Part shown: positions 31,898 to 45,722 of the stretch, in pieces
Position numbering within the stretch: the first letter of the stretch is position 1
How the letters are laid out: every line of letters starts with the position of its first letter
Assembly: GCA_015063385.1 (NCBI GenBank)
Contig: SVUG01000002.1
Coordinates: 62,001-126,000 of the forward strand
Source: Oscillospiraceae bacterium
Lineage (GTDB): Bacteria > Bacillota > Clostridia > Oscillospirales > CAG-272
Direction: 5' to 3'
Length of the DNA: 64,000 nt
The notes under the pieces: model-generated
The model's database searches: none
Told to the model about the DNA's origin: nothing
What the model saw: only the letters and a program-made list of their open reading frames with translations
Translations under genes and position numbers: made by a program

Positions 31898-31968
31898 AGC
31901 CGCAGCTCTAATTTTTTGGGATGCGGCTTTGTGCATACTGCACAAGTTTTAGTCACCTCATAGGTGAC
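31898..31968. promoter_or_regulatory. Three consecutive dyads upstream of the phage-like operon
   Basis: AGCCGCA-N17-TGCGGCT, TTGTGCA-TAC-TGCACAA, GTCACCT-CAT-AGGTGAC. Confidence 0.5.
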
Positions 31969-31989
31969 ATTTTTGACACCAAATCATAC

Positions 31990-32017
31990 TTACAAATGAG
32001 TTTTAGTGTTGTATAAT
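31990..32017 (+). promoter_or_regulatory. Putative promoter for the structured leader and phage-like operon
   Basis: TTACAA - 16 nt - TATAAT; predicted start near 32024. Confidence 0.55.
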
Positions 32018-32021
32018 GAAC

Positions 32022-32100
32022 TTGCCGGGTGACAAGAGGCCGATGCGTAGACCTCTTTTGGCAGTGGGCAGACGCATATGCCCGAGCACTCAAACGGCAA
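32022..32100 (+). ncRNA. Candidate structured leader RNA: three-way junction with complementary hairpin loops
   Basis: P1 TTGCCG/CGGCAA (extended by GGTG/CACT), hairpin AAGAGG/CCTCTT, hairpin GGGCA/TGCCC; loop ATGCGT (32043-32048) perfectly complements loop ACGCAT (32072-32077). Confidence 0.55.
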
Positions 32101-32121
32101 TAAACAGAAAGGAAAGAGAAA

Positions 32122-32448
32122 GTGGCAAAACGAAAATACACCCCCTCGCTTGCAAGAGAGATGTACTGCTTCTTCCGTGGCTTTGACGACCTTGGCGCGC
32201 CGAGTGTCGCAAAGTTTGCCGCATCAATCGGTGTGACAAGCGCCGAAATTGAGAAATTCAGGCGACACAAGGAATTTGACAGGGCGTACCGCGAGTGCTG
32301 CGAAATTAAAAGAGATTATCTTATAGACCGTGCGCTGAGCAAGCGGTTTGACGCCGGATTTGTAAAGTTCCTGCTATCAAGCGAGGACGAAAAGAGCTCC
32401 TCTGAGGATAGAGAAAGCCTAAATATCACTCTCACGGTGGCTGAATAA
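32122..32448 (+). CDS. Putative phage terminase small subunit (GTG start)
   Basis: HTH-like GAPSVAKFAASIGVTSAEIEKFRR; overlaps TerL gene start. Confidence 0.6.
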   Translation: MAKRKYTPSLAREMYCFFRGFDDLGAPSVAKFAASIGVTSAEIEKFRRHKEFDRAYRECCEIKRDYLIDRALSKRFDAGFVKFLLSSEDEKSSSEDRESLNITLTVAE

Positions 32449-33806
32449 TGAAGCTGAATTTGACTGTGACGAAAAAGCAAAAGGCTTTTATTGATGCAAC
32501 TGAGGGCGAGGTGCTTTTCGGAGGCGCGGCGGGCGGTGGAAAATCATACGGACAGACGGTGGACGCACTTCTGTTTGCGCTGAAATACCCCGGCTCAAAG
32601 CAGCTTATACTCAGGCGAACCTTCGCCGAGCTTGATAAGTCGCTTATCCGCACCTCACTCTCCCTCTTTCCAAAGGAGATTTACTCATTCAACTCCTCAT
32701 CGCACACGGGAAAATTCAAAAACGGCTCGATAGTTGACTTCGGATACTGCGCGGCGGAAAACGACGTTTATCAATACCAAAGCGCAGAGTACGACGTGAT
32801 ACGCTTCGACGAGCTGACGCACTTTACCGAGAGTCAGTATATATATCTGATTTCAAGAGTGCGCGGCGCGAACGATTTCCCAAAGCAGATAAAGTCCTCA
32901 ACCAACCCCGGCGGCATAGGACACGCCTGGGTAAAGCGGAGGTTTGTCGACGACTCTCCCTCGGGTGTGGCGTTTATCGGCGGTGACGGAATGAGAAGAA
33001 TCTTTATCCCCGCACTCCTCGATGACAACCGCTTTCTCGTCTCGGGCGACCCGCAGTACAGAGAAAGACTGCTCGCCCTGCCAGAGCGTGAAAGGCGCGC
33101 ACTTCTCCACGGGGACTGGAACATCTTTGAGGGGCAGTATTTCTCGGAGTTTAACCCAAGGGTGCATATTATAGAGCCCTTTGAAATACCTGCCTCGTGG
33201 CGTAAATTCCGCACGATTGACTACGGTCTTGACCGTCTGGCGTGCCTGTGGATTGCGATTTCGCCCGAGGGAATTTCCTACGTCTACCGAGAATACTGCG
33301 AGTCAAATCTTGCAATAAGCGCGGCGGCAGGGGCAATTCTTGAGAGAACCCCAAGCGGTGAAGAAATCTACGCAACCCTTGCACCCCCCGACCTCTTTTC
33401 ACGTAGTCAGGAAAGCGGCAAGAGCAAGGCGACGCTCTTTTCCGAGTTCGGTGTGAATTTCACCAAGACGGCAAACGACCGCGAGGCCGGCTGGCTGGCA
33501 ATTAAGGAGCTGCTTTCAGGACCTCTTGGAGTGCGGCTGAGGATTTTCTCAAGCTGTACCGAAATAATAAAGTGCCTGCCTGCCTTGGCGGTGGATAAAA
33601 TCCGCCCCACCGACTGCTCGAGCGAGCCCCACGAGATAACTCACGCGCCCGACGCTCTGCGCGGATATGCAATATACAAGGCGTATCCTGCAAGGTGCAC
33701 CGTGAAAAAGAGAAGCGTGTGGACGAGGGATATGTGGGAGGACTATATGCTTGCCGACGGTGAGCAAAGAAAATACTTGAAAGAAAAATACGGAGAACCA
33801 AATTGA
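32448..33806 (+). CDS. Phage terminase large subunit
   Basis: EVLFGGAAGGGKSYGQTVDALLFALKYPGSKQLILRRTFAEL (Walker A), YDVIRFDELTHFTESQYIYL (Walker B), FRTIDYGLDRLACLWIAI nuclease region. Confidence 0.95.
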   Translation: MKLNLTVTKKQKAFIDATEGEVLFGGAAGGGKSYGQTVDALLFALKYPGSKQLILRRTFAELDKSLIRTSLSLFPKEIYSFNSSSHTGKFKNGSIVDFGYCAAENDVYQYQSAEYDVIRFDELTHFTESQYIYLISRVRGANDFPKQIKSSTNPGGIGHAWVKRRFVDDSPSGVAFIGGDGMRRIFIPALLDDNRFLVSGDPQYRERLLALPERERRALLHGDWNIFEGQYFSEFNPRVHIIEPFEIPASWRKFRTIDYGLDRLACLWIAISPEGISYVYREYCESNLAISAAAGAILERTPSGEEIYATLAPPDLFSRSQESGKSKATLFSEFGVNFTKTANDREAGWLAIKELLSGPLGVRLRIFSSCTEIIKCLPALAVDKIRPTDCSSEPHEITHAPDALRGYAIYKAYPARCTVKKRSVWTRDMWEDYMLADGEQRKYLKEKYGEPN

Positions 33807-35509
33807 AAGACATAAACACACAAAAAGACGAGCGGCTTGAGCATTTTTCCTCACTCCTTGAGGCAGCAAGGCTCGCCGCCGGCGACCGCGACGAGAGGCT
33901 CGACAAAAATATGAACCAATACCTCGGCGGAGCCGAAATCGACGGCTCTAGCGAGCCTGCTCTCACGGTGAGAAATATCACATACGAGATTATCGAGAGC
34001 GAGATTGACCCTGCGGTTCCCGTGCCGAAGGTTGACGCCTTCTCATACAGCGAGGAAAGAGAGAGGCGCGCTGCCTCTATCGAAAGACTCTGCACCGCCC
34101 TGCGCGACAGACTGCCGTTTGAGGATATGAACGACCTCGACGAGAGGTATACCTATATTTACGGTGCGAGCGTATGGTACGCGGAGTGGGAGCAGGACGG
34201 CGGCGACGGCGGAATCAGGCTTCACTGCCTGTCTCCCAAAAGCTTCCTCGGTCAGCCCGGAATCACGAAAATCGAGGATATGGAGTACTGCTTCCTTACC
34301 TTTATTACGACCAAGGACGAGCTGATGCGAAAATACGGCGTCAGCGAGGAGGACAGCGCGCTTGCCGAATACGAATACAAGTACGACGGCGCGTCGCTCT
34401 CGGATACGGTAAAGGTAGTGCTGTGCTTCTATCGCGACGAGGACTCGGAGGTGTCGAGGTTTATCTTCTCGGGCGACCTCGTGCTTGAGGATACCCCAAA
34501 GCTATACAAGAGAAAGAGCCTCGTATGCTCAAGCTGCGGTGCTGCGATAGGCGAATGCGGCTGCGGTGCCCCTCTAGTGCTTTCGGATTTATCGGCGGAG
34601 GATATAAAAGTCGGCTCAAGGAGCGTTAGAGTTCCTTATTATACCCCCATGGGCTTCCCTATCGTTATCAGAAAGAACTCTCGCTCGGAGGACGGCGTTT
34701 TCGGCTCGTCTGACTGCGAAATAATAAGACCTCAGCAGCAGGCTATAAACAAGGTGGAATCAAGAATTCTGCAAAAGCTGCTGCGTGCCGCAATTACCCC
34801 GATTATGCCCGAGGACTCCTCCGTCACGCTTGGCAACTCGGTATTCGGGCAGGTGATAAAGATGCGCCCCGGTGAGAGCGCTTCGAGCTACGGCAAAATC
34901 GACACCACCCCCGACATATCGCAGGATATTCTCGAGGCAGACAGGCTCTACGAGCAGGCAAAGAGAGTGCTGGGTATTTCCGACGCGCTTCAGGGCCTTG
35001 ATACCACCAGCGTTGAGTCGGGTTATGCAAGACAGCTGAAGATTTCACAGTCGGCAAGCCGTCTGGAGACCAAGAGGAGAATGAAAAACCTCGCCTACTC
35101 CGAGATTTACCGCCTGATATTCGAGCATTATCTCGCGTTTGCCGATGCGACTCACGAGCTATCCTACAAGGACGGCCTCGGCGTAGTGCATACCGAGCAT
35201 TTTAGCCGTCACGACTTCATTGAGTGGGGCGACGGAAGCGCTCCTCATTACGCTGACGAATATCTCTTCTCCACAGGAGAGGACAGCGAGAGCCAATACA
35301 AGCGCGAGGCGCTCTGGGAGAGGAATCTCGAGAATCTTGAGTCCGGCACTCTCGGCGACAAATCCGAGCCGAAAACCCTGCTCAGATACTGGCAGGCACA
35401 GGAGAAGGCTCATTATCCTTACGCCAAGGATAACGTCGAATACTTTAAGGGTATTCTTGAAAATCAAAATCAAAAAGAAAGCGAGAAAGAAAATGAAAAA
35501 TCAGACTAA
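33803..35509 (+). CDS. Phage portal protein, podovirus-like
   Basis: Follows TerL; PQQQAINKVESRILQKLLRAAITPIM, SASRLETKRRMKNLAYSEIYRLIFEHYL. Confidence 0.85.
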   Translation: MKDINTQKDERLEHFSSLLEAARLAAGDRDERLDKNMNQYLGGAEIDGSSEPALTVRNITYEIIESEIDPAVPVPKVDAFSYSEERERRAASIERLCTALRDRLPFEDMNDLDERYTYIYGASVWYAEWEQDGGDGGIRLHCLSPKSFLGQPGITKIEDMEYCFLTFITTKDELMRKYGVSEEDSALAEYEYKYDGASLSDTVKVVLCFYRDEDSEVSRFIFSGDLVLEDTPKLYKRKSLVCSSCGAAIGECGCGAPLVLSDLSAEDIKVGSRSVRVPYYTPMGFPIVIRKNSRSEDGVFGSSDCEIIRPQQQAINKVESRILQKLLRAAITPIMPEDSSVTLGNSVFGQVIKMRPGESASSYGKIDTTPDISQDILEADRLYEQAKRVLGISDALQGLDTTSVESGYARQLKISQSASRLETKRRMKNLAYSEIYRLIFEHYLAFADATHELSYKDGLGVVHTEHFSRHDFIEWGDGSAPHYADEYLFSTGEDSESQYKREALWERNLENLESGTLGDKSEPKTLLRYWQAQEKAHYPYAKDNVEYFKGILENQNQKESEKENEKSD

Positions 35510-35627
35510 AAATCCCTACAGAAGCTTATCCCAAGAGCCTATCAAGGCGCCGAAAAAGCAGGACGAGGCAAAGGTGCGCTCCGACAAGACCGTTGGCGGT
35601 GACCTGCGCGTCAAGGGAGGCAAGTAA
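35493..35627 (+). CDS. Small basic hypothetical phage protein (44 aa)
   Basis: MKNQTKNPYRSLSQEPIKAPKKQDEAKVRSDKTVGGDLRVKGGK; overlaps portal 3' end, abuts the next gene. Confidence 0.5.
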   Translation: MKNQTKNPYRSLSQEPIKAPKKQDEAKVRSDKTVGGDLRVKGGK

Positions 35628-36028
35628 TGGACGAGCGCGAGGAAATAGAGACCACTCTGCCTGATGGACAGACCGAGGTATACGAGGCAGAGCCCGAGGT
35701 ATACGAGGGCAGCGAGCCGGAGGCGGTGGACTACACGAGCGAGCTGGAGGGACTCTCTGCCGAGTTCCCCGACGTAAATCTCGGTGGGCATGCCGAAAGG
35801 TACTCCGAGCTTAGAGCGCTCGGTCTCAGCGAAAGAGAGGCGTTCTTTGCCAGCGCCTCGCGCGTGCCGAGGACGGACAATCGCGCACATCTGTTCGGCG
35901 GTATGCCGAAAATGGCAAAAAGCCCTATGGGCGCTATGCCCAGACGCGAGCTGGAGGCAGCACGCGAAATATTCTCAGGTCTATCCGACCGTCAAATCGA
36001 GGACCTGTATAAAAAAGTGACTAAATAA
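35627..36028 (+). CDS. Putative capsid scaffolding-like protein
   Basis: Acidic N-terminus and basic C-terminus between portal and capsid genes (assignment from position and composition). Confidence 0.5.
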   Translation: MDEREEIETTLPDGQTEVYEAEPEVYEGSEPEAVDYTSELEGLSAEFPDVNLGGHAERYSELRALGLSEREAFFASASRVPRTDNRAHLFGGMPKMAKSPMGAMPRRELEAAREIFSGLSDRQIEDLYKKVTK

Positions 36029-36051
36029 TTAAAAGAAAGAAGGAAAAACAA

Positions 36052-37089
36052 GTGATAATTTATTCTAAATCTTCGGGTAATACCCCTGCTGCGATAGGCA
36101 GACTCGAAACCCCTATCAAAATGATTATAGAGCATGAGAGCGATATGCTCACCAAGAAGGGCGGCATCTGCGAGGCGCTCTTCAACGTAGAAAAGAGCAA
36201 CCGCTTCGGTGAAACCATCGTCGGCGGCAACGAGTTCGACGTCTTTGAGGCGGCGGCAGAAGGCACGGCGGCAGCAAGCGATACTCTCGTCGAGACCTAT
36301 CAGAAGTTCATCGAGCACATTCAGTTTATGAAGGAGTTCACCATCACCGCAGAGATGATGGAGGACGCAAACTACGGTGTTGCGGCAGACGCAAAGCGCA
36401 GAATCGAGAACTTCGTCAGAGCATACTACAAGACCGTCAACAAGGTGTGCGAGTGCGCGCTTGCAAACGGCCTTAACACCAGCGCAACCTTTGCAGGTGC
36501 AAGCGTTGACCTTTCTGCACCCGACGGTCTCTCGCTCTTTAACAAGAACCACACCTACGGCTCTTCTGCTACAAACGCAAGCGGTACTCAGTCAAACTAC
36601 TTCTGGGGTGATATTCTCTCGTCTACCTCTGCATTTGAGGACGCGCTCTCCGAGCTTTCGGTCAAGCTTCGCTATATGAAGGACGAAAGCGGCGAGCCTC
36701 TCGGCTACACCGCCGACACCATCGTGCTTCCCGGCAATCGCCCCGCGGCAGAGGTTATCGCCAAGAAGGTATGCGGCTCTGAGGGCTCTCTTGGCAACGG
36801 CTACAACGACATCAACCTCCACTACGGCAACTGGAACATCGTGGTGCTTCCAAACTGGCAGACCAGCGATAACCGCGTGATGATTATGTCAAGCGAGGCT
36901 AATAAGAGCCTTTGCGGTAATATGTTCTTCAACCGTATTCCCCTCACCGTCACAAACTGGGTGGACAATCACACCGGCAATTACATCTGGAACGGCAGAT
37001 GCCGTTTCGGCGTAGGATTTGGCACTTACAAGCATATTCTCCTCGCCGTAGACAGCACCAGCGCCGTCGCCGATGCCACTGCTTTGTAA
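36052..37089 (+). CDS. Putative major capsid protein
   Basis: Follows the scaffold-like gene; FTITAEMMEDANYGV, ADTIVLPGNRPAAEVIAKKV, GFGTYKHILLAVD. Confidence 0.8.
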   Translation: MIIYSKSSGNTPAAIGRLETPIKMIIEHESDMLTKKGGICEALFNVEKSNRFGETIVGGNEFDVFEAAAEGTAAASDTLVETYQKFIEHIQFMKEFTITAEMMEDANYGVAADAKRRIENFVRAYYKTVNKVCECALANGLNTSATFAGASVDLSAPDGLSLFNKNHTYGSSATNASGTQSNYFWGDILSSTSAFEDALSELSVKLRYMKDESGEPLGYTADTIVLPGNRPAAEVIAKKVCGSEGSLGNGYNDINLHYGNWNIVVLPNWQTSDNRVMIMSSEANKSLCGNMFFNRIPLTVTNWVDNHTGNYIWNGRCRFGVGFGTYKHILLAVDSTSAVADATAL

Positions 37090-37140
37090 TTTTTAGTTTA
37101 CATTTTAGCTTAAATTTCAAGGAAAGGCAAGGTTTTTTAA

Positions 37141-37980
37141 ATGACACTAAAGGAATTACACGGTGAAACGTGCGCACTCGCATTCGACGATTTTCTGGCG
37201 CTGGACGACAGGTTTCTCTCGTCCGCCTACCGTGCGATGCGCGCTGTGTATAACTCAAGAAAAATCACTGCCGAGAAAAAATTCTACGTCAGAGGCTGCC
37301 TGCCGAAAACTAAGATTTCCGAAATTCGTCACAAGGGAGGCAGGGCTGAATCCCTGCCTCTTTCGGGAAAGGCGTTCAGCATGCGACTTTACGGCAAGGG
37401 AAACATCGTCGTAAGCGGTCCAAATGGAGAGTTCATGAAGGATTTTGATTGCAACGGCGATTATTACAAGGACTTCCTTGACGCAGATACGACAATTACC
37501 TTCGTCGGTTTGAGCTCCTACACCGTTTGCGACCTGGTCACCTTTGAGGAGGTCTTTTCAAGCAACAGAAGCGATATTCCTGACGGTGACGGCTTCACGG
37601 TTATTGATTTAAGGGAGGCACTGCCCGATTTCCTCTCTCTTGACTCCATGCCGACCGACGCGTCGGGCAAGACTCTTACTGCAGCTGTGGTCTACGACGG
37701 AAAAATCAAGCTTCCCGACTCCTATTCGGGCGAGATTTCCATAGTTTACCGCAAGCGGCCGATGCAGCCCTCGCTTTATTCCCCTGAGAGCAGAATAGAT
37801 ATTCCTGCAGAGTACGAGCCGCTATTGCCTCTGTACTGCGCGTATTATCTGCTGCTTGAGGACGAGCCCGAAAAAGCGGAATTCTATCGCGAGGAATATG
37901 AAAAAATGCTCGCAGTAATTGGCCGTGGATTCGTGTATTCGTTTGAGAACAAATATCTTGATACGAACGGGTGGGCGTGA
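37141..37980 (+). CDS. Putative head-tail connector / neck protein
   Basis: Position after capsid gene; IDIPAEYEPLLPLYCAYYLLLEDEPEKAEFYREEYEKML resembles neck-protein C-termini. Confidence 0.55.
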   Translation: MTLKELHGETCALAFDDFLALDDRFLSSAYRAMRAVYNSRKITAEKKFYVRGCLPKTKISEIRHKGGRAESLPLSGKAFSMRLYGKGNIVVSGPNGEFMKDFDCNGDYYKDFLDADTTITFVGLSSYTVCDLVTFEEVFSSNRSDIPDGDGFTVIDLREALPDFLSLDSMPTDASGKTLTAAVVYDGKIKLPDSYSGEISIVYRKRPMQPSLYSPESRIDIPAEYEPLLPLYCAYYLLLEDEPEKAEFYREEYEKMLAVIGRGFVYSFENKYLDTNGWA

Positions 37981-40607
37981 TGAGCAGTAAATACAAAAAT
38001 TCATCAAGCGCAGAATACACCAGGGTTTACGAAAACCTGCGCGGTGTAGATTTGTCCATAGTTCCGAACCGAAAGTCTCATTCAAGATTCGCTTATCTTG
38101 AAAATATGTACGTTGACTACGAGGGCGCGGATACGGCAGTGGAAAGCGTGGTCGGCTTCAGAAAGGTCGTTCAGCTTAACACAAAAATAAACGGTATGTT
38201 TCTTCAAAGGCTTGGCGAGGGAGAGGAATACGTTGTCGTGCACGCGGGAACTAAGGTCTACCGCTTTAACTCAAATAATCGAGACACTATTAAGAGAATT
38301 GCAGCTACTTACAACGGTCTGATTGACACAGTAAGCCGTGCGGTCTGCTTCAAGGACTCGCTGTATATTATGGATGGCGAGAAAATTCTGGTAATCGCCG
38401 CAGACGGAAGTGCGAAGCTGCTCGGAGAGGATATTGCACCGTATATCCCCATTCTTTCGCAGGACGGCGAGGAAAATGAAAATGCCAATCTTCTCACAAG
38501 CAGCTGTATTTGCAAATATACGGTTAATAACCTCAACGAAACAGGATACGCAAGCCCCGGACTCACCTACGAGATAAGCAATGAATATAGCAAAACCTGC
38601 AAGGTGACCGGTATAAGCAACGACTTCTCCGGCGAGCTTCATATTCCGTCCTACGTTTTTATTGAGGGTAAAAAATACAACGTGACTGCTATCGGCGAAA
38701 GCGCTTTTAAGGGCAACGCAAAAATTACCGCCCTTCACACAAACGCAAATCTTAAAATCATAGAAAAGTATGCGTTCAGAGGCTGCCCGGCGCTGAAAAC
38801 CGTACATTTTTCTGATACGGTAAGCGAGCTTGGCCACTATTCGTTCTATAGCTGCACGGCTCTTACGGATTTGTATATCGGACTCGGATTTACTTCTTTC
38901 GGCGTACACGCAATGGACGGCTGTACTGCCCTTCAAAACGTATATTATGCCGGAAGCGACGAGGAATTTATCGAAATTGAAAGAGTAGACCAGATGATAA
39001 ATGCTGATATACACAGCGGTGTGTCAGAAAAGGGGCTTATATTATCAATTCCCGTCAGTAGTAAAATATCAAGCGTTCAGCGAGTTTTTATCGGCAACAC
39101 ACAGGTTTCGTTCATATTTGAAAAGGAAAAGGCGCAGATTCGCATAACTATCGCGGATAAAACGGCGGTTTCTCCGGGAGAGGTCCTGGTTTACGCAAAT
39201 GCAGATAACAACGTCTTCACAGCCATAACCCCAAAGGAAGCTATCACCTATTGCACTCTTGCGGCGGTTTATGACGGAAGGCTTTTCCTCTCCGGAAATC
39301 CAAGTCTTCCGGGATACGTGTTTTATTCCTCAACGGACGGGGACGGCAATATAAATCCCGCCTATTTTTCCGTGAGCGATTTCTTCATTGACGGCGGGGA
39401 TAAATACGGGGTCTGCTCGCTGCTCGCAACAGATGACGGACTCGTGGTATTCAAAGCGGGTGATGGCGGAGAGGGCGACGTGTTTTATCACAAGCCGTCG
39501 ACAAGCGGCGGCTATCCCGTCACGCGTCTGTGTCACGACAGCTATGCCGCGGGCGACTCCTTCGTCTTTCTCGGTGACACCGTTTTCGTTTCGGAAAAGG
39601 GGCTCTCTGCCCTTGAGTCGTCATCGGGCAAGATGCGTGCGGTCTGCCGCTCAGGCAATATAAACAGGCTTCTTCTGTGTGAGAATCCAAAGGACATTCG
39701 CATAGCAGAATGGCAAGGATATATCGTACTGTCGGTTGGCGGAAGAATGTATCTTGGTGACTCGCGCGCAACCTTTAAGCGTGCAGATAGCTTTGAGTAC
39801 GAGTGGTATTACCTAAGCGGAATCGGAACTTATTTTGACGCACAGAGAATTTGCCGATACAGCTCTGTTGCACGCGACGGATACGAGGTTCACGAGAATG
39901 TCGACCAGCCCACCGATATGACCGTAGTCAGCAAATCGGACGGAGCCGGCGGTTATTATTACTACGTCACCGACAGCAAAACAAACAAGAAATACGAGGT
40001 ATATCTGACCGACGAGTTCAGCGGCGGAGTATTCAAGGCGGCGACCTCCATTCTCGGCTTTGATAATCTTCTGTATTTCGGAACGGAATCAGGTGACGTT
40101 TGCATCTTCAATAACGACAAGCGAGGGGTTGCTCCCGACAGGCTGAAAAATGCGGACGATTTTGACCCAGAGGAGTATAAGAGGCTCTACGGCAGGAAAA
40201 TTCACCCCGATTTTTACGGTTTTGACAACAAGGCTGCGCACTGCGTAGTATCCACCGTTATGGACGACTGCGAGCTTCCGGGACTTAGGAAAAACAGTAT
40301 TCGCGACTCTTTGGCAGTTAAATTCAAGACGTTTCCGAGAAGTATGGCAAGCGTTTTCGTAAGCACCGACGCTGTTGCACACAAGCTGCTCACTACCCTC
40401 TCGGTATCTGAATTCAATTTTGCAGACGTTTATTTTGCTGATATTTCTATGCTTACAGCTCCCTTTGTCAGCCGTCCAATACCCGAATTCGAGCGCGACT
40501 GGGTTGAAAAGAGCATAACGCTCTCCTCTGATAATTTTCGTGCTCCGATAGGAATTTACTCAATAAGCTATCGGTACAGAATAAAAGGTAAAATCAAGAA
40601 AAACTGA
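37971..40607 (+). CDS. Putative phage hub/DNA-stabilization-like protein with embedded BspA-type LRR domain
   Basis: N-term RGVDLSIVPNRKSHSRFAYLENMYVDYEGADTAVESVVGF; internal AIGESAFKGNAKITALHTNANLKIIEKYAFRGCPALKTVHFSDTVSELGHYSFYSCTALTDLYIG. Confidence 0.65.
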   Translation: MGVMSSKYKNSSSAEYTRVYENLRGVDLSIVPNRKSHSRFAYLENMYVDYEGADTAVESVVGFRKVVQLNTKINGMFLQRLGEGEEYVVVHAGTKVYRFNSNNRDTIKRIAATYNGLIDTVSRAVCFKDSLYIMDGEKILVIAADGSAKLLGEDIAPYIPILSQDGEENENANLLTSSCICKYTVNNLNETGYASPGLTYEISNEYSKTCKVTGISNDFSGELHIPSYVFIEGKKYNVTAIGESAFKGNAKITALHTNANLKIIEKYAFRGCPALKTVHFSDTVSELGHYSFYSCTALTDLYIGLGFTSFGVHAMDGCTALQNVYYAGSDEEFIEIERVDQMINADIHSGVSEKGLILSIPVSSKISSVQRVFIGNTQVSFIFEKEKAQIRITIADKTAVSPGEVLVYANADNNVFTAITPKEAITYCTLAAVYDGRLFLSGNPSLPGYVFYSSTDGDGNINPAYFSVSDFFIDGGDKYGVCSLLATDDGLVVFKAGDGGEGDVFYHKPSTSGGYPVTRLCHDSYAAGDSFVFLGDTVFVSEKGLSALESSSGKMRAVCRSGNINRLLLCENPKDIRIAEWQGYIVLSVGGRMYLGDSRATFKRADSFEYEWYYLSGIGTYFDAQRICRYSSVARDGYEVHENVDQPTDMTVVSKSDGAGGYYYYVTDSKTNKKYEVYLTDEFSGGVFKAATSILGFDNLLYFGTESGDVCIFNNDKRGVAPDRLKNADDFDPEEYKRLYGRKIHPDFYGFDNKAAHCVVSTVMDDCELPGLRKNSIRDSLAVKFKTFPRSMASVFVSTDAVAHKLLTTLSVSEFNFADVYFADISMLTAPFVSRPIPEFERDWVEKSITLSSDNFRAPIGIYSISYRYRIKGKIKKN

Positions 40608-40621
40608 AGAAAGGATTAAAA

Positions 40622-40996
40622 ATGAAGGTACAAAAAATATTTAGCACTGATACCGAGGATAAAAAAATATCATCCTTGCCAAGCTGTCCGACTAGTCAGG
40701 CATTGTACGGCGGTATGGGATACAGCTCTACTGATATGAAGAACGCCTTTGACGGACTCTCACTGCTTATCATAGAGCGCTTCAACGCCCTGCTCGACGA
40801 TATATGCGCGGCGCCTGCCGATTCAATTAGCTCGGCTATAAAAACCGGCATATACGCAGGACATACTCTCTCACAGCTCTTCTCGGACCTGCAAAACGGA
40901 AACGCGGCAACCTATATTAAGGTTAACGGCAACTCGCTTGCAAGCGAACTTCTCACCATTAAAGAGGCAATACGCGAGCTCGGAGGTGACGTATGA
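40622..40996 (+). CDS. Hypothetical phage-module protein
   Basis: Co-directional intact ORF, overlaps next gene by 4 nt. Confidence 0.6.
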   Translation: MKVQKIFSTDTEDKKISSLPSCPTSQALYGGMGYSSTDMKNAFDGLSLLIIERFNALLDDICAAPADSISSAIKTGIYAGHTLSQLFSDLQNGNAATYIKVNGNSLASELLTIKEAIRELGGDV

Positions 40997-41388
40997 GCAG
41001 ACTGAAATTCAAGCTTTACGGCAGCGAGGTCGAGCTTATCAACATGGCAAGCGACTCCTCAGGAAGCTTGGAGCTGGATTTTTCAGAAAATTTATCCGGC
41101 TTCCTGCGCATAGGCAAGCTTGCGCTAAAATTAACAGAGGGCAAGTGCATCGTGGATTTAAGGCTTCTTGAGAACGGGGAATATACACCCGAGCTGGTGC
41201 TTGACAACAGGCTCGTCGTGCTTCCTCTTATGAGAAAATTCGGCAACCTAGTCGAGTGCCTTGACTGCACTGTCGACTATATCCGTGCCGCATCTCAAAG
41301 AGAGCGCGCGCTCGCTGAGCTGGTAGCAACGCTTGAGGAAAAAATCAAGCTTCTTGAGGACAAGGTATACGGCACTGTCGTGCTCTAA
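40993..41388 (+). CDS. Hypothetical phage-module protein
   Basis: Co-directional intact ORF with coiled-coil C-term RERALAELVATLEEKIKLLEDKVYG. Confidence 0.6.
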   Translation: MSRLKFKLYGSEVELINMASDSSGSLELDFSENLSGFLRIGKLALKLTEGKCIVDLRLLENGEYTPELVLDNRLVVLPLMRKFGNLVECLDCTVDYIRAASQRERALAELVATLEEKIKLLEDKVYGTVVL

Positions 41389-41394
41389 AAAGAA

Positions 41395-41415
41395 TGGTGC
41401 GGCAAAAAGCCGCAC
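41395..41415 (+). promoter_or_regulatory. Strong hairpin directly 5' of the RBS of the next gene
   Basis: GGTGCGGC-AAAAA-GCCGCACC followed by GGAAAGGACAAAAATG. Confidence 0.6.
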
Positions 41416-41429
41416 CGGAAAGGACAAAA

Positions 41430-42053
41430 ATGAAAAGAAAAAATCAAAAATTAACTAAAATCATAATCACACTTGCCCTTGCGGCAGCGCTTATTACAGT
41501 CTTTGCTATCGGTGTGTCTGCCGAGGAGGCGCAAATCGCAGCCGATGCGCTCACAGAGAGCACGGGGCTGAGCGAGGAGAACGTTTTCGCTGAAATTTAC
41601 TCGGTGATTAAGGCAAACTCCGACAAGATTTTCTCCGCTCTCGCCTTTATCGGCACACTGATAGTGGGCGCGATGTATAAAAGCGGACTTTTGCCTCTGC
41701 TCTCCGACGCGCTAGCCAAATTTAAGGGAATGCTCGACAGCATTAAAGCGGAAAACGAGCGATACGAGAGCCTCTCTGATGCAAAAATGTCAGAGATTGG
41801 CGTATCCATTAAAAATATCGAGAAATCGATTGAGGATACAAACGGCGAGATAGAGCGCATTGAAAGTGAGCTCTCGGTGTACGAGGCTGCTCTCTCTGAG
41901 CGAAATAGCATGAAGATTATACTCTCCTCACAGATAGATATGCTTTACAGCATATTTATGGCGTCCTCTCTCCCCCAGTTTGAAAAGGAGGAGATAGGCA
42001 ACAAAATTTCAAAGATGAGAGAGGAGCTTAACTCCTATGAAAAGTCGGAATAA
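41430..42053 (+). CDS. Membrane/coiled-coil protein with signal peptide
   Basis: KIIITLALAAALITVFAIGVSAEE; IFSALAFIGTLIVGAMY; long coiled coil. Confidence 0.7.
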   Translation: MKRKNQKLTKIIITLALAAALITVFAIGVSAEEAQIAADALTESTGLSEENVFAEIYSVIKANSDKIFSALAFIGTLIVGAMYKSGLLPLLSDALAKFKGMLDSIKAENERYESLSDAKMSEIGVSIKNIEKSIEDTNGEIERIESELSVYEAALSERNSMKIILSSQIDMLYSIFMASSLPQFEKEEIGNKISKMREELNSYEKSE

Positions 42054-42402
42054 GTCGAAATTTGTAAATATTATTTTACATATCATCGGTTTTTTGCTCT
42101 GCATCATTCCGCCCGCGGTATGCACGATACTCTACTTCCCCGTGTGGCGTGAGGCAGGTGCGGCCAGCTGTATTGCAGGTGGTGGGGCACTCGTTCTAGT
42201 GATTTGCGCTATACCTCTCTACAAGCTTCTGCGCCGTGCGCTCTCGGGGGCGAGCGCGTATATGATGTGGCTTATCGCCTTTCTCGTATTCTTCGGTCTG
42301 TCGAAAATTGCCGTGGAAATGACGGTTATAAGCTTCGTCGGCTTCGTGTCTAACCTGCTCGGCGCAATTCTAATGAAAATAGGCGGAATAAAAGATGAGT
42401 AA
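42037..42402 (+). CDS. Hypothetical membrane protein
   Basis: Several hydrophobic segments; overlaps both neighbours. Confidence 0.65.
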   Translation: MKSRNKSKFVNIILHIIGFLLCIIPPAVCTILYFPVWREAGAASCIAGGGALVLVICAIPLYKLLRRALSGASAYMMWLIAFLVFFGLSKIAVEMTVISFVGFVSNLLGAILMKIGGIKDE

Positions 42403-43231
42403 AAACGGCTTTGACAAGGAGCTGCTTGAGTTCTCCTCGGTGATGCACAGCGGATACCTGCTTTTGCTCAGAGGCGCAGGAAAAATCATCGCGCTTTTGA
42501 CTATTATAGTGACGGCTCTGGTCACCTTTACCGATATAAGCTTTCAGTCGTTTACCAGTGAAGGCTTCTCAAGCTCGCTTATCGTGATGCTGATTTCCTC
42601 GTATATCGTCTACTTCTCTCTTGAGGAGTCGGGCGAGGCGCTGGGCAACGAGTCTGACGAATACCGCGATGCGCTTTCCGCCTACCGCGAGGCAAGGGCA
42701 AAAATCGGTGTGGACTCTGTGGCGGCTCTGCGCGAGTTCTGCTCGGATTACAGGCGCGAGGAGCTTTTGTACAGGCGAAAAAATTTCCTTATGGAAAAGG
42801 GACTCTCGGGCGAGGAATACGAGGAGTATAAGAGAGGCGGTACGGTCTCGAAAAGGGCGGCGCGAGCCTTCAGGCGAGCAGACGCGATGCGAGCGATTTC
42901 CCTCACTCCCGCTACGCTTCTATCGGGCGAGCGGGGGGGTGGAGGCTCGGAGCTTGAAAGCCCTGAAAAAAAGAAGCTTCTCACCTCGCTCCGCATACTG
43001 ATTCCCTCGACGGCGTGTATGATTTTCACCATTTCGGTGATTCTCACCGCCAAGGGCGATATGACCGCGTCGGTCATAATCGACGGTATACTGAAGCTGT
43101 CGGCTCTGCCGATAATCGGTCTGCGCGCGTACAGTGCAGGCTACTCCTACGCAAAGGAGGAAAAATCGCTCTGGCTTGAAGCAAGGGCAAGACTGCTATC
43201 CTCATTCGCAAATCAAAAAAATAACGCCTAA
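42395..43231 (+). CDS. Hypothetical membrane protein
   Basis: Paired hydrophobic segments around a charged cytosolic-type region. Confidence 0.7.
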   Translation: MSKNGFDKELLEFSSVMHSGYLLLLRGAGKIIALLTIIVTALVTFTDISFQSFTSEGFSSSLIVMLISSYIVYFSLEESGEALGNESDEYRDALSAYREARAKIGVDSVAALREFCSDYRREELLYRRKNFLMEKGLSGEEYEEYKRGGTVSKRAARAFRRADAMRAISLTPATLLSGERGGGGSELESPEKKKLLTSLRILIPSTACMIFTISVILTAKGDMTASVIIDGILKLSALPIIGLRAYSAGYSYAKEEKSLWLEARARLLSSFANQKNNA

Positions 43232-43328: not shown

Positions 43329-45722
43329 ATGAAATACGATATAAGCGAAGAAAAAATCATAATTTCGCAACGAGAATTCGTATCTATTGCAAGGCGCTCG
43401 GTTTCTGCCACTGCGAGCTTTGACGAGGACGAGCCAAGCCTCTCGGAAATTTCGGCAAAGCGGCTCTCGGCAATAGTCGGCGAGGTTAAGGAGGTCGGCA
43501 TTTCGCACGAATTTTCCGCCCTAGGATACGGCTTCAAGCTCATTTTGCGCGCGGACGGTGTGCGAGGTGACGAGATTATCCTCGCGGGAAATGCCGCGTC
43601 GTACAAGGCAGATCCAAGCCGTGAGGAGCTTGCCGAGCTTCGCGGTGAGGCGTTTCTCTTTGGCTTTTGGCTGGCGGAAAAGGAAAAATATCCGTCGGTC
43701 AAAATAAGGCTCGTATTTATCTCGGAAAACGGGCTATATAAGGAAATGAGCGAGAGAGTTGAAATTTCGGTGCTCAAAAAATTCTTTGACAAATGTCTTG
43801 ACAGCGTTAAAAAATTTGCGCGCCCAGAGGTCGAGCGCGTGAGCGAAAGACTGCCATCTCTTAAAGGAATGAAGTTCCCATACGAGAATATACGCGAGGG
43901 ACAGAGCGAGTTTATCCGCACCGCCTACCGCACGCTTGCAAGAGGCGGAGTACTCTACGCGTCAGCGCCTACCGGCACGGGAAAGACGGTTTCCGCCCTC
44001 TACCCTGCTCTGCGCGCTTTGGGCGATGAACGGGTTGAAAAGGTCTTTTATCTCACCCCAAAAACCACGACCGCCGAGGCAGCGCGGGAGTGCCTTACGC
44101 TTATGGCGGAGCGCGGTGCGAATATACGCGCTGTAATTCTGACGGCAAAGGACCGCTGCTGCATTGGCAATCACGCCTGCCGCGACGCGCGCAAGAATTG
44201 CCGATTTGCGCCCTGCAAAAATATAGGCGAGGCGGCGCTGGCTCTTTATAATATGGGGCTGACGGTGGTCACCTCGCGTGAATTTATGAGAGTAGGCGAG
44301 CAGTATGGCGTTTGCCCACACGAGCTCTCGCTCACCTACGCGGAGCTTTCGGACGTTGTGATTTGCGACTTCAATTATCTCTTCGACCCGCAGGTTTACA
44401 TTCGACGCTTCTTCACCGAGGGCGGCCGCTACGCAATTTTAGTCGACGAGGCGCACAACCTATGCGAGAGGGCACGCGAGATGTACTCGGCAGAGATTAC
44501 CGCTGACGAAATTGCTGCCCCTGCTGCCGACGAGGTGCTGGGCGTGCTCTCCCCAACGAAGAAAATGGCAGACACCGCGAGGGCGGTATTTGAGGATATT
44601 TTCTACCCATTCGTTAAGGAAGAATTGCGCGAAAACCGCGAGGGTGAGATGGTCGGTGCGGTGAATCTCTCTGAAATTCCCGCAAGGCTTTACACGCTTC
44701 TTGACGAGATTTTGACAGTGACGGACGACGAGCTGCGCGATAATCTGCGCGCGCGTGACGAGGAGCGCGACGCAAGGGTCAAGTCGCTGCGAAATTACTA
44801 CTACAAAATTAAAAAATTCGCCGAGGCGGCGGCTCGCTTCGACGATGCTTATAAATTATTCGTGTTCTTTGAGGACGGGCAAATCCGCGTCAGGATTTTC
44901 TGCCTTGACACAGGTCCTGCCATCAAAAAATGCCTCGGAAAAGGACACGGTGCGGTGCTGTTCTCGGCTACGCTCTCGCCCCTTGGATACTACCGCTCGG
45001 TGCTGGGCGGTGAGAGAAGCGACGAGATGCTTGAGGTTAATTCCCCATTCGCGCCTGAGCAGCTCTCGGTGGCTATTATGGACAAAATCAGCACGCGATA
45101 CTCCGAGCGCGAGGACACGCTGCTCGCCGTCTGTCGCGCTATTGCGGCAACCGTTTCGGCAAAGCGCGGAAATTATATGATTTTCTCGCCCTCGTTTGCC
45201 TACTCCGAGGCACTCTCTGAGCTATTCCGCGCGAAATACCCGAATATTCGCGTTCTGTCGCAGAAAAGGGATATGACGCGGAGCGAAAAAGAGGAGTTCC
45301 TCGCCGAGTTCAGAAAGGACGACCGGTCATACCTCATCGGATTTTGCGTTATGGGCGGAATTTACTCTGAGGGAATAGACCTCGCGGGTGACTCGCTCAT
45401 CGGTGCGGTGATAGTCGGCATCGGTATGCCTGCCCTCTCCTACGAGCGAGAGGCTATCGCCGAGTATTATCAAGAAAAGTACGACGAGGGCAAGCAGTAC
45501 GCCTACATCTACCCCGGTATGAACCGTGTATTCCAGGCGGCAGGACGAGTCATCAGGCGTGAGGACGACCGCGGCGTTATCGTGCTAATCGACGACCGCT
45601 TTGACGACCCACTCTACCGCAAAAGCCTGCCAAAGCTCTGGGAGGGCGTGCAGTTTATAGGTGACGCAAAGGAATTAAAAGAAGAGCTCGAGGAGTTCTG
45701 GAGAGCAGAAGAAAACAACTAA
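43329..45722 (+). CDS. Rad3/DinG-type Fe-S DNA helicase
   Basis: SAPTGTGKTVSALYPALRA, Fe-S cysteines CCIGNHACRDARKNCRFAPC, VDEAHNL, VFQAAGRVIRREDDRG. Confidence 0.92.
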   Translation: MKYDISEEKIIISQREFVSIARRSVSATASFDEDEPSLSEISAKRLSAIVGEVKEVGISHEFSALGYGFKLILRADGVRGDEIILAGNAASYKADPSREELAELRGEAFLFGFWLAEKEKYPSVKIRLVFISENGLYKEMSERVEISVLKKFFDKCLDSVKKFARPEVERVSERLPSLKGMKFPYENIREGQSEFIRTAYRTLARGGVLYASAPTGTGKTVSALYPALRALGDERVEKVFYLTPKTTTAEAARECLTLMAERGANIRAVILTAKDRCCIGNHACRDARKNCRFAPCKNIGEAALALYNMGLTVVTSREFMRVGEQYGVCPHELSLTYAELSDVVICDFNYLFDPQVYIRRFFTEGGRYAILVDEAHNLCERAREMYSAEITADEIAAPAADEVLGVLSPTKKMADTARAVFEDIFYPFVKEELRENREGEMVGAVNLSEIPARLYTLLDEILTVTDDELRDNLRARDEERDARVKSLRNYYYKIKKFAEAAARFDDAYKLFVFFEDGQIRVRIFCLDTGPAIKKCLGKGHGAVLFSATLSPLGYYRSVLGGERSDEMLEVNSPFAPEQLSVAIMDKISTRYSEREDTLLAVCRAIAATVSAKRGNYMIFSPSFAYSEALSELFRAKYPNIRVLSQKRDMTRSEKEEFLAEFRKDDRSYLIGFCVMGGIYSEGIDLAGDSLIGAVIVGIGMPALSYEREAIAEYYQEKYDEGKQYAYIYPGMNRVFQAAGRVIRREDDRGVIVLIDDRFDDPLYRKSLPKLWEGVQFIGDAKELKEELEEFWRAEENN

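Follow-up and report, generated by a model that had tools for sequence, protein, structure and literature searches.

The DNA just ahead of a phage-like packaging operon in an Oscillospiraceae genome appears to encode a short leader RNA with two mutually complementary hairpin loops, which raises the question whether these loops close a single molecule or join one RNA copy to another. We analyzed this locus within a stretch of 64,000 nt (the window) and compared it with orthologous loci. The leader and its parts are as follows:

32022–32100, forward strand: structured 5' leader RNA, a three-way junction (direct reading and RNAfold)
32022–32027 (TTGCCG) and 32095–32100 (CGGCAA), forward strand: closing helix P1 (read directly)
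32034–32057, forward strand: hairpin P2 with stem AAGAGG (32034–32039) and CCTCTT (32052–32057) (direct reading and RNAfold)
32042–32049, forward strand: P2 loop G-ATGCGT-A, hexamer at 32043–32048 (read directly)
32066–32083, forward strand: hairpin P3 with stem GGGCA (32066–32070) and TGCCC (32079–32083) (direct reading and RNAfold)
32071–32078, forward strand: P3 loop G-ACGCAT-A, hexamer at 32072–32077 (read directly)
32110–32116, forward strand: Shine-Dalgarno-like AGGAAAG, outside the leader structure (by eye)

Direct reading agrees with the initial annotation on P1, the two hairpins and the complementary loops, and the gene of the terminase small subunit indeed starts 22 nt after P1, at a GTG read at 32122. 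The inner extension of P1 had been given as GGTG/CACT; RNAfold draws TGA/TCA instead, while the junction itself is retained. The two hexamers are perfect complements, each within an 8-nt loop flanked by G and A, and neither loop is palindromic by itself. RNAfold returned the three-way junction with a minimum free energy of -29.8 to -30 kcal/mol and a z of -2.07 to -2.67, so the predicted folding energy by itself would be only modestly unusual; a chance origin is ruled out by the comparison with relatives described below, not by folding energy alone. That the layout corresponds to no known riboswitch was borne out by Rfam, in which neither any family nor the pRNA covariance model matched the window leader at the gathering score, nor did the purine riboswitch core or covariance model. 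The leader is located downstream of the predicted start of transcription and upstream of the ribosome site, which it leaves uncovered.

Upstream of the leader we mapped these elements:

31929–31945, no strand assigned: inverted repeat TTGTGCATACTGCACAA, operator-like, a putative regulator site
31970–31993, forward strand: conserved upstream promoter box TTTTTGACACCAAATCATACTTAC (genus consensus TTTTTGGAAGGGTACTATACTTAC)
31989–31994, forward strand: -35 hexamer CTTACA, conserved in orthologues
32012–32017, forward strand: -10 hexamer TATAAT, with the RNA start expected at about 32022–32025

The TATAAT box noted earlier, paired with CTTACA across a 17-nt spacer (10 of 12 matches), makes a good promoter whose start site would coincide with the beginning of the leader. 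Orthologous leaders likewise begin just after one conserved promoter, which among orthologues with a TerL (terminase large subunit) identity of about 72% or more reads TTTTTGGAAGGG-n-ATACTTAC-N18-TATAAT. The ACTTAC core served to pick out these promoters, which makes its 100% conservation among them circular; even so, every 20-kb locus retrieved for this group has it except L084, which has GCTTAC. Recognizable forms of the TTGTGCATACTGCACAA repeat (TTTTTTTGTGCA-n-TGCACAA) stand ahead of many orthologous promoters. A second inverted repeat, GTCACCTCATAGGTGAC, is found at 31952–31968 upstream of the promoter; both repeats recur in several relatives and are candidates for an operator or an insulating terminator.

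The genes transcribed behind the leader form a cassette of about 11 kb (32122–43231) with a gene order conserved in relatives:

32122–32448, forward strand: terminase small subunit (TerS), 108 aa, GTG start (phrog_3064, E 1.4e-9)
32448–33806, forward strand: terminase large subunit (TerL), 452 aa (PF04466, PF03237)
33803–35509, forward strand: portal protein (phrog_156, E 5e-24)
35627–36028, forward strand: probable scaffold, by position; no family match, syntenic in relatives
36052–37089, forward strand: major capsid protein (phrog_371, E 1e-8), single copy in the genome
37141–37980, forward strand: head-tail adaptor, SU10-like (weak match to PF24175, E 5e-4, below cut-off)
37971–40607, forward strand: 878-aa protein with a BspA-type LRR_5 region (PF13306), a probable tail or receptor-side protein
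40622–43231, forward strand: five small conserved ORFs (124, 131, 219, 121 and 278 aa), order kept in relatives, no Pfam family
43329–45722, forward strand: DinG/XPD-type helicase (PF13307, PF06733), often directly 3' of the cassette in relatives

By reading, the cassette is flanked upstream by deoC, a nucleoside phosphorylase gene, deoB, cdd, udp and udk and, beyond the helicase, by housekeeping genes, among them luxS, glyS and ATP synthase. The deo/cdd/udk genes are found upstream in L203, L206, L213 and L224 as in the window, and mtnN-luxS-glyS downstream in L209; other species differ. Searches found no tyrosine integrase on the contig of 254 kb, nor a serine recombinase anywhere in the window's genome, and beside the cluster neither an integrase nor replication genes of its own were found, the flanks reading as housekeeping ORFs. 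Of the 69 genomes of the genus, 60 have TerL, free of internal stops. One mark of a gene transfer agent (GTA) is that a bacterial lineage retains phage head and packaging genes undamaged, and this is what we find here. The operon is thus probably not an ordinary prophage or phage module and looks like a domesticated GTA-like cassette. Contigs of 40,886–40,887 bases carrying this TerL are also binned in Methanobrevibacter, Methanosphaera and Clostridia MAGs (L120, L121, L133); these probably represent one phage contig mis-binned into archaea.

We then compared the leaders of 35 orthologous loci, almost all from within this genus, with one genome per species. Sequence and architecture of the leaders drift, with no conservation at the level of primary sequence. 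In many of them a helix starting at the predicted RNA 5' end closes the leader, and one to three hairpins are present. Across the leaders the apical loops follow one grammar, G-N6-A, in which N6 is usually a perfect palindrome (for example TCCGGA, CTGCAG, CTCGAG, CTTAAG or TTGCAA). Counting all G-N6-A hairpins with a stem of at least 4 bp, palindromic or not, we found 11 of 13 in the leaders to be palindromic, the other two being the window's and a T-run, vs 4 of 694 (0.6% background) elsewhere in the same loci. A strict G-palindrome-A hairpin is present in 10 leaders, with 0.022 expected from dinucleotide shuffles and a maximum of 1 in 500 rounds. In a broader test admitting loops of 8–12 nt the signal was weaker than with the strict grammar (18 of 35 leaders, shuffle mean 4.3, maximum 11). 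The shuffles and the background hairpins of these loci both rule out chance as the source of the palindromic loops. Palindromes at any place within a leader were dropped as evidence since a random 100-nt leader often contains one and their presence is uninformative. The mean folding z of the leaders is only -1.27.

The strict motif is also restricted to one strand. In 207 loci it occurs 19 times on the sense strand upstream of TerL (a good part of these matches being the same species under two locus ids), once on the antisense strand and 12 times in the remaining ~1.9 Mb of sense strand. Where a leader carries two palindromic loops the palindromes differ: TCCGGA and CTGCAG in L206, TCATGA and CTTAAG in L207, TCATGA and CTCGAG in L209. 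The close relatives L207, L209 and L211 vary only in the loop centre (GCT-TA-AGA, GCT-CG-AGA, GCT-AT-AGA); with the GC of L203 and L206 all four self-complementary dinucleotides are represented. In 16 aligned hairpins 97.9% of the cells in the loop and 93.8% of those in the stem hold standard pairs, every pair shows changes on both sides, and sliding the partner by one lowers pairing to 37–39%; the stem-plus-kissing register is favored over every shift. As 14 of the 16 rows were picked as palindromic, the unbiased evidence is the count of 11 of 13. The G and A flanking the hexamer are invariant in this alignment, the window included, for which hairpins were selected by their G...A flanks; G...A is the only flank class enriched in palindromes.

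The window itself departs from the palindromic rule in a simple manner. Each of its hexamers is one substitution away from ACGCGT, the palindrome of L213 in the same TerL subtree, so that the two pair mutually and no longer with themselves. The pair ATGCGT/ACGCAT as such occurs only in the window's genome, with two other pattern matches in the genus showing longer spacing. Since the backbone of the TerL tree is weak, with many deeper nodes poorly supported, the number of independent loop changes is uncertain. Computed kissing-helix strength ranges from -3.2 to -11.5 kcal/mol across the leaders, and the helices predicted for CTTAAG or CTATAG would be weak.

The initial annotation had expected homologous modules to carry the leader and substitutions to respect its pairing. 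The former holds in part. G014 has essentially no leader ahead of its orthologous module, the TerL lineage at 63–68% identity is without the promoter and, but for one locus (L113), without the motif, and the leaders of L225, L226 and L104 show plain hairpins. That it is all but missing from G014 and absent from the 63–68% lineage means that the leader is not essential to the module. A considerable part of the leaders has no clear palindromic loop, with none found in L201, L215 and L219, and TerL relatives of ~54% identity are without the strict motif. In the remaining orthologous leaders substitutions tend to keep the loops self-complementary. In L113, of the divergent TerL lineage, the hairpin TGCTTGC-G[CACGTG]A-GCAAGCA occurs twice, at about -540 and +3918 relative to TerL.

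Comparison of sequences establishes the promoter, the predicted structure, the loop grammar, the preserved self-complementarity and the restriction to the sense strand. What these loops would do follows from their symmetry: within a single molecule a palindromic loop has no copy of itself to pair with, and the palindromes of a two-loop leader differ from each other, so selection has most likely acted on pairing between RNA molecules. We therefore propose, with reasonable though not strong confidence, that the leader hairpins of this GTA-like packaging mRNA are G-N6-A kissing-loop modules selected for pairing between RNA copies. In most hairpin-bearing relatives the palindromic hexamer would allow two leaders to pair loop to loop, as the dimerization initiation site (DIS) of HIV-1 does, and leaders with two different palindromic loops could build chains of RNAs. 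In the window, mutually complementary loops replace the palindromes and could form a hetero-kissing pair joining neighboring RNAs head to tail; closure within one molecule may also occur but is less likely on geometry. The RNA dimers presumed to form in the cell may act at the level of the mRNA, by protecting its 5' end, by clustering packaging transcripts for co-assembly or by dose-dependent control. We favor such mRNA-level linkage, stability or clustering ahead of a motor role, the simplest reading being that a paired 5' end and loop linkage of packaging transcripts would affect their stability, local concentration and dose response. As a tentative and rather doubtful extension, a domesticated packaging system might use DIS-like loops to link copies of its late mRNAs as dimers or chains, making RNA assembly a part of particle production, either by clustering packaging transcripts or by supplying a structural or motor RNA.

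Pairing between copies has to be weighed against a kiss within one three-way junction, which would make the window leader a compact regulatory element with a topology like that of purine riboswitches. Both loops lie on one RNA at a suitable distance, on hairpins of similar length, and would enjoy the advantage of local concentration. However, the relatives' loops are palindromic or mutually non-complementary and unable to pair within a molecule, no riboswitch core or Rfam match was found, and a collinear 6-bp kissing helix is awkward for adjacent hairpins. A full 6-bp kissing helix tends to collinearity. Kissing motifs of 180 and 120 degrees are on record (PMC10376919). We rank this reading second to inter-copy pairing and consider it unlikely; of the kissing-loop junction proposed initially, the structured leader and the loop complementarity stand, whereas a conserved intramolecular kiss does not fit the palindromic loops of the relatives. 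Slightly less plausible still is a stabilizer of the 5' end or a put-like antitermination leader, whose functional parts would be P1 and the hairpins, the loop palindromes being incidental. The helix that closes many leaders close to the predicted RNA 5' end, the length of the operon and the mean folding z of -1.27 would suit such a role, and antitermination is used in GTA clusters elsewhere, as in Caulobacter (PMC11150451). It leaves unexplained, however, both the palindromes (11 of 13 against the 0.6% background) and the invariant G...A flanks, and it may be true in addition to loop pairing.

The position of the leader at the head of a terminase-portal operon would also suit a packaging-motor RNA, cut from the mRNA and assembled by loop-loop contacts into a ring on the portal like phi29 pRNA; hetero-complementary loops as in the window could form rings, as in pRNA (PMC7357161). 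Palindromic loops in the relatives favor dimers or chains over rings, though, the operon has ordinary TerS and TerL, and the Rfam pRNA match is absent. Support for this reading is poor: among orthologous modules whose TerL is intact, L225, L226 and L104 show plain hairpins and G014 next to no leader. We regard it as very unlikely. Finally, the symmetry might belong to the DNA, as a cos/pac-like site or an operator for a dimeric protein next to terS. A cos site is often found immediately upstream of terS and can be symmetric. Against sequence-specific binding, the symmetry is kept while the hexamers change from species to species; the G...A flanks lack complementarity, there is a strong strand bias (19 sense vs 1 antisense), and the motif is in every case downstream of the predicted start of transcription and upstream of the ribosome site. 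A DNA-level element is therefore the least probable of these readings.

The promoter of the cassette is not confined to it. Up to five copies per genome of the composite box are found across the genus, with zero for the reversed control. In the window's own genome a variant, ACACCAAATCATACTTAC, stands ahead of DnaD-like genes, one product of which matches phage helicase loaders (phrog_5708, E 1.6e-27), and other genomes have the box ahead of DnaD-like or helix-turn-helix genes standing singly among host genes. Scattered single genes of these two kinds, of phage type, follow the box at L262, L269, L293, L302, L309 and L311–L313. Because its box precedes these scattered genes, the packaging cassette seems to be part of a dispersed, co-regulated set of phage-derived genes. 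At L310 and L311, in the genomes G021 and G040, the leader of a helix-turn-helix gene under the same promoter presents a palindromic TCCGGA loop. The packaging leader of G021 has the same hexamer, so that the two mRNAs could kiss in trans, while that of G040 has another. In two species (L277, also L279) the ORF behind the box weakly matches a minor head protein and looks like a nuclease, and the ORF after it is barstar-like by eye (phrog_17593, of unknown function); a toxin-immunity pair in the same regulon is possible. In L271 and L272 of the window's own genome it precedes genes that by eye are DUF1385-like and permease-like. In the relatives L293 and L312 a DnaD-like ORF lies between box and DUF1385-like gene, which suggests that this ORF was lost in the window's genome.

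RNA homodimerization via palindromic loops is known mainly from retroviruses and from a few other RNAs, eukaryotic ones and ornate ones of bacteria. For a bacterial packaging system of this kind, a retrovirus-like RNA-pairing device has not previously been described. If our reading is true, bacteria gain such a device for mRNAs at the 5' end of a GTA-like structural operon, and the role of RNA is reopened for packaging systems outside phi29. The relatives' leaders would then offer a ready set of natural compensatory variants for testing loop pairing. The leader and its promoter also mark an apparently co-regulated, dispersed set of phage-derived genes in a large genus of ruminant-gut Clostridia.

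For the cassette, FpGTA I of Faecalibacterium is the nearest system described, a 10.5 kb podovirus-like operon encoding TerS, TerL, portal, scaffold and capsid; a species bearing it has been shown to produce 40-nm DNA-filled capsids (PMC12946183). The likeness lies in gene content: both are GTA-like operons of gut Clostridia with no replication genes, and the portion of the description accessible to us does not mention a leader RNA. The literature searched, in which subscription journals are sparsely covered, yielded no paper joining 'gene transfer agent' and 'kissing loop'. The ornate RNAs GOLLD, ROOL and OLE are bacterial homo-oligomers held together partly by intermolecular kissing loops, some of them symmetric, and GOLLD and ROOL are phage-encoded (PMC12286853); they are separate RNAs of hundreds of nucleotides, whereas here a 5' leader of ~80 nt carries one to three hairpins. 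With phi29 pRNA the window shares loop-loop complementary RNA beside phage packaging genes and hetero-complementary loops, but there is no Rfam match and, as far as known, no separate small RNA, the terminase subunits are ordinary, and the relatives' loops are palindromic and not ring-forming. Closest in the loop itself is the HIV-1 DIS, an apical loop with a 6-nt palindrome and purine flanks (purine(s)-N6-A), whose GUGCAC occurs as such in L223. The present case differs in being the mRNA leader of a bacterial DNA-packaging operon with a hexamer that varies between species, in the two complementary loops that replace the one palindrome in the window, and in that dimerization is here predicted. 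The purine flanks of the leaders agree with the rules described for the HIV-1 DIS (PMC7357161).
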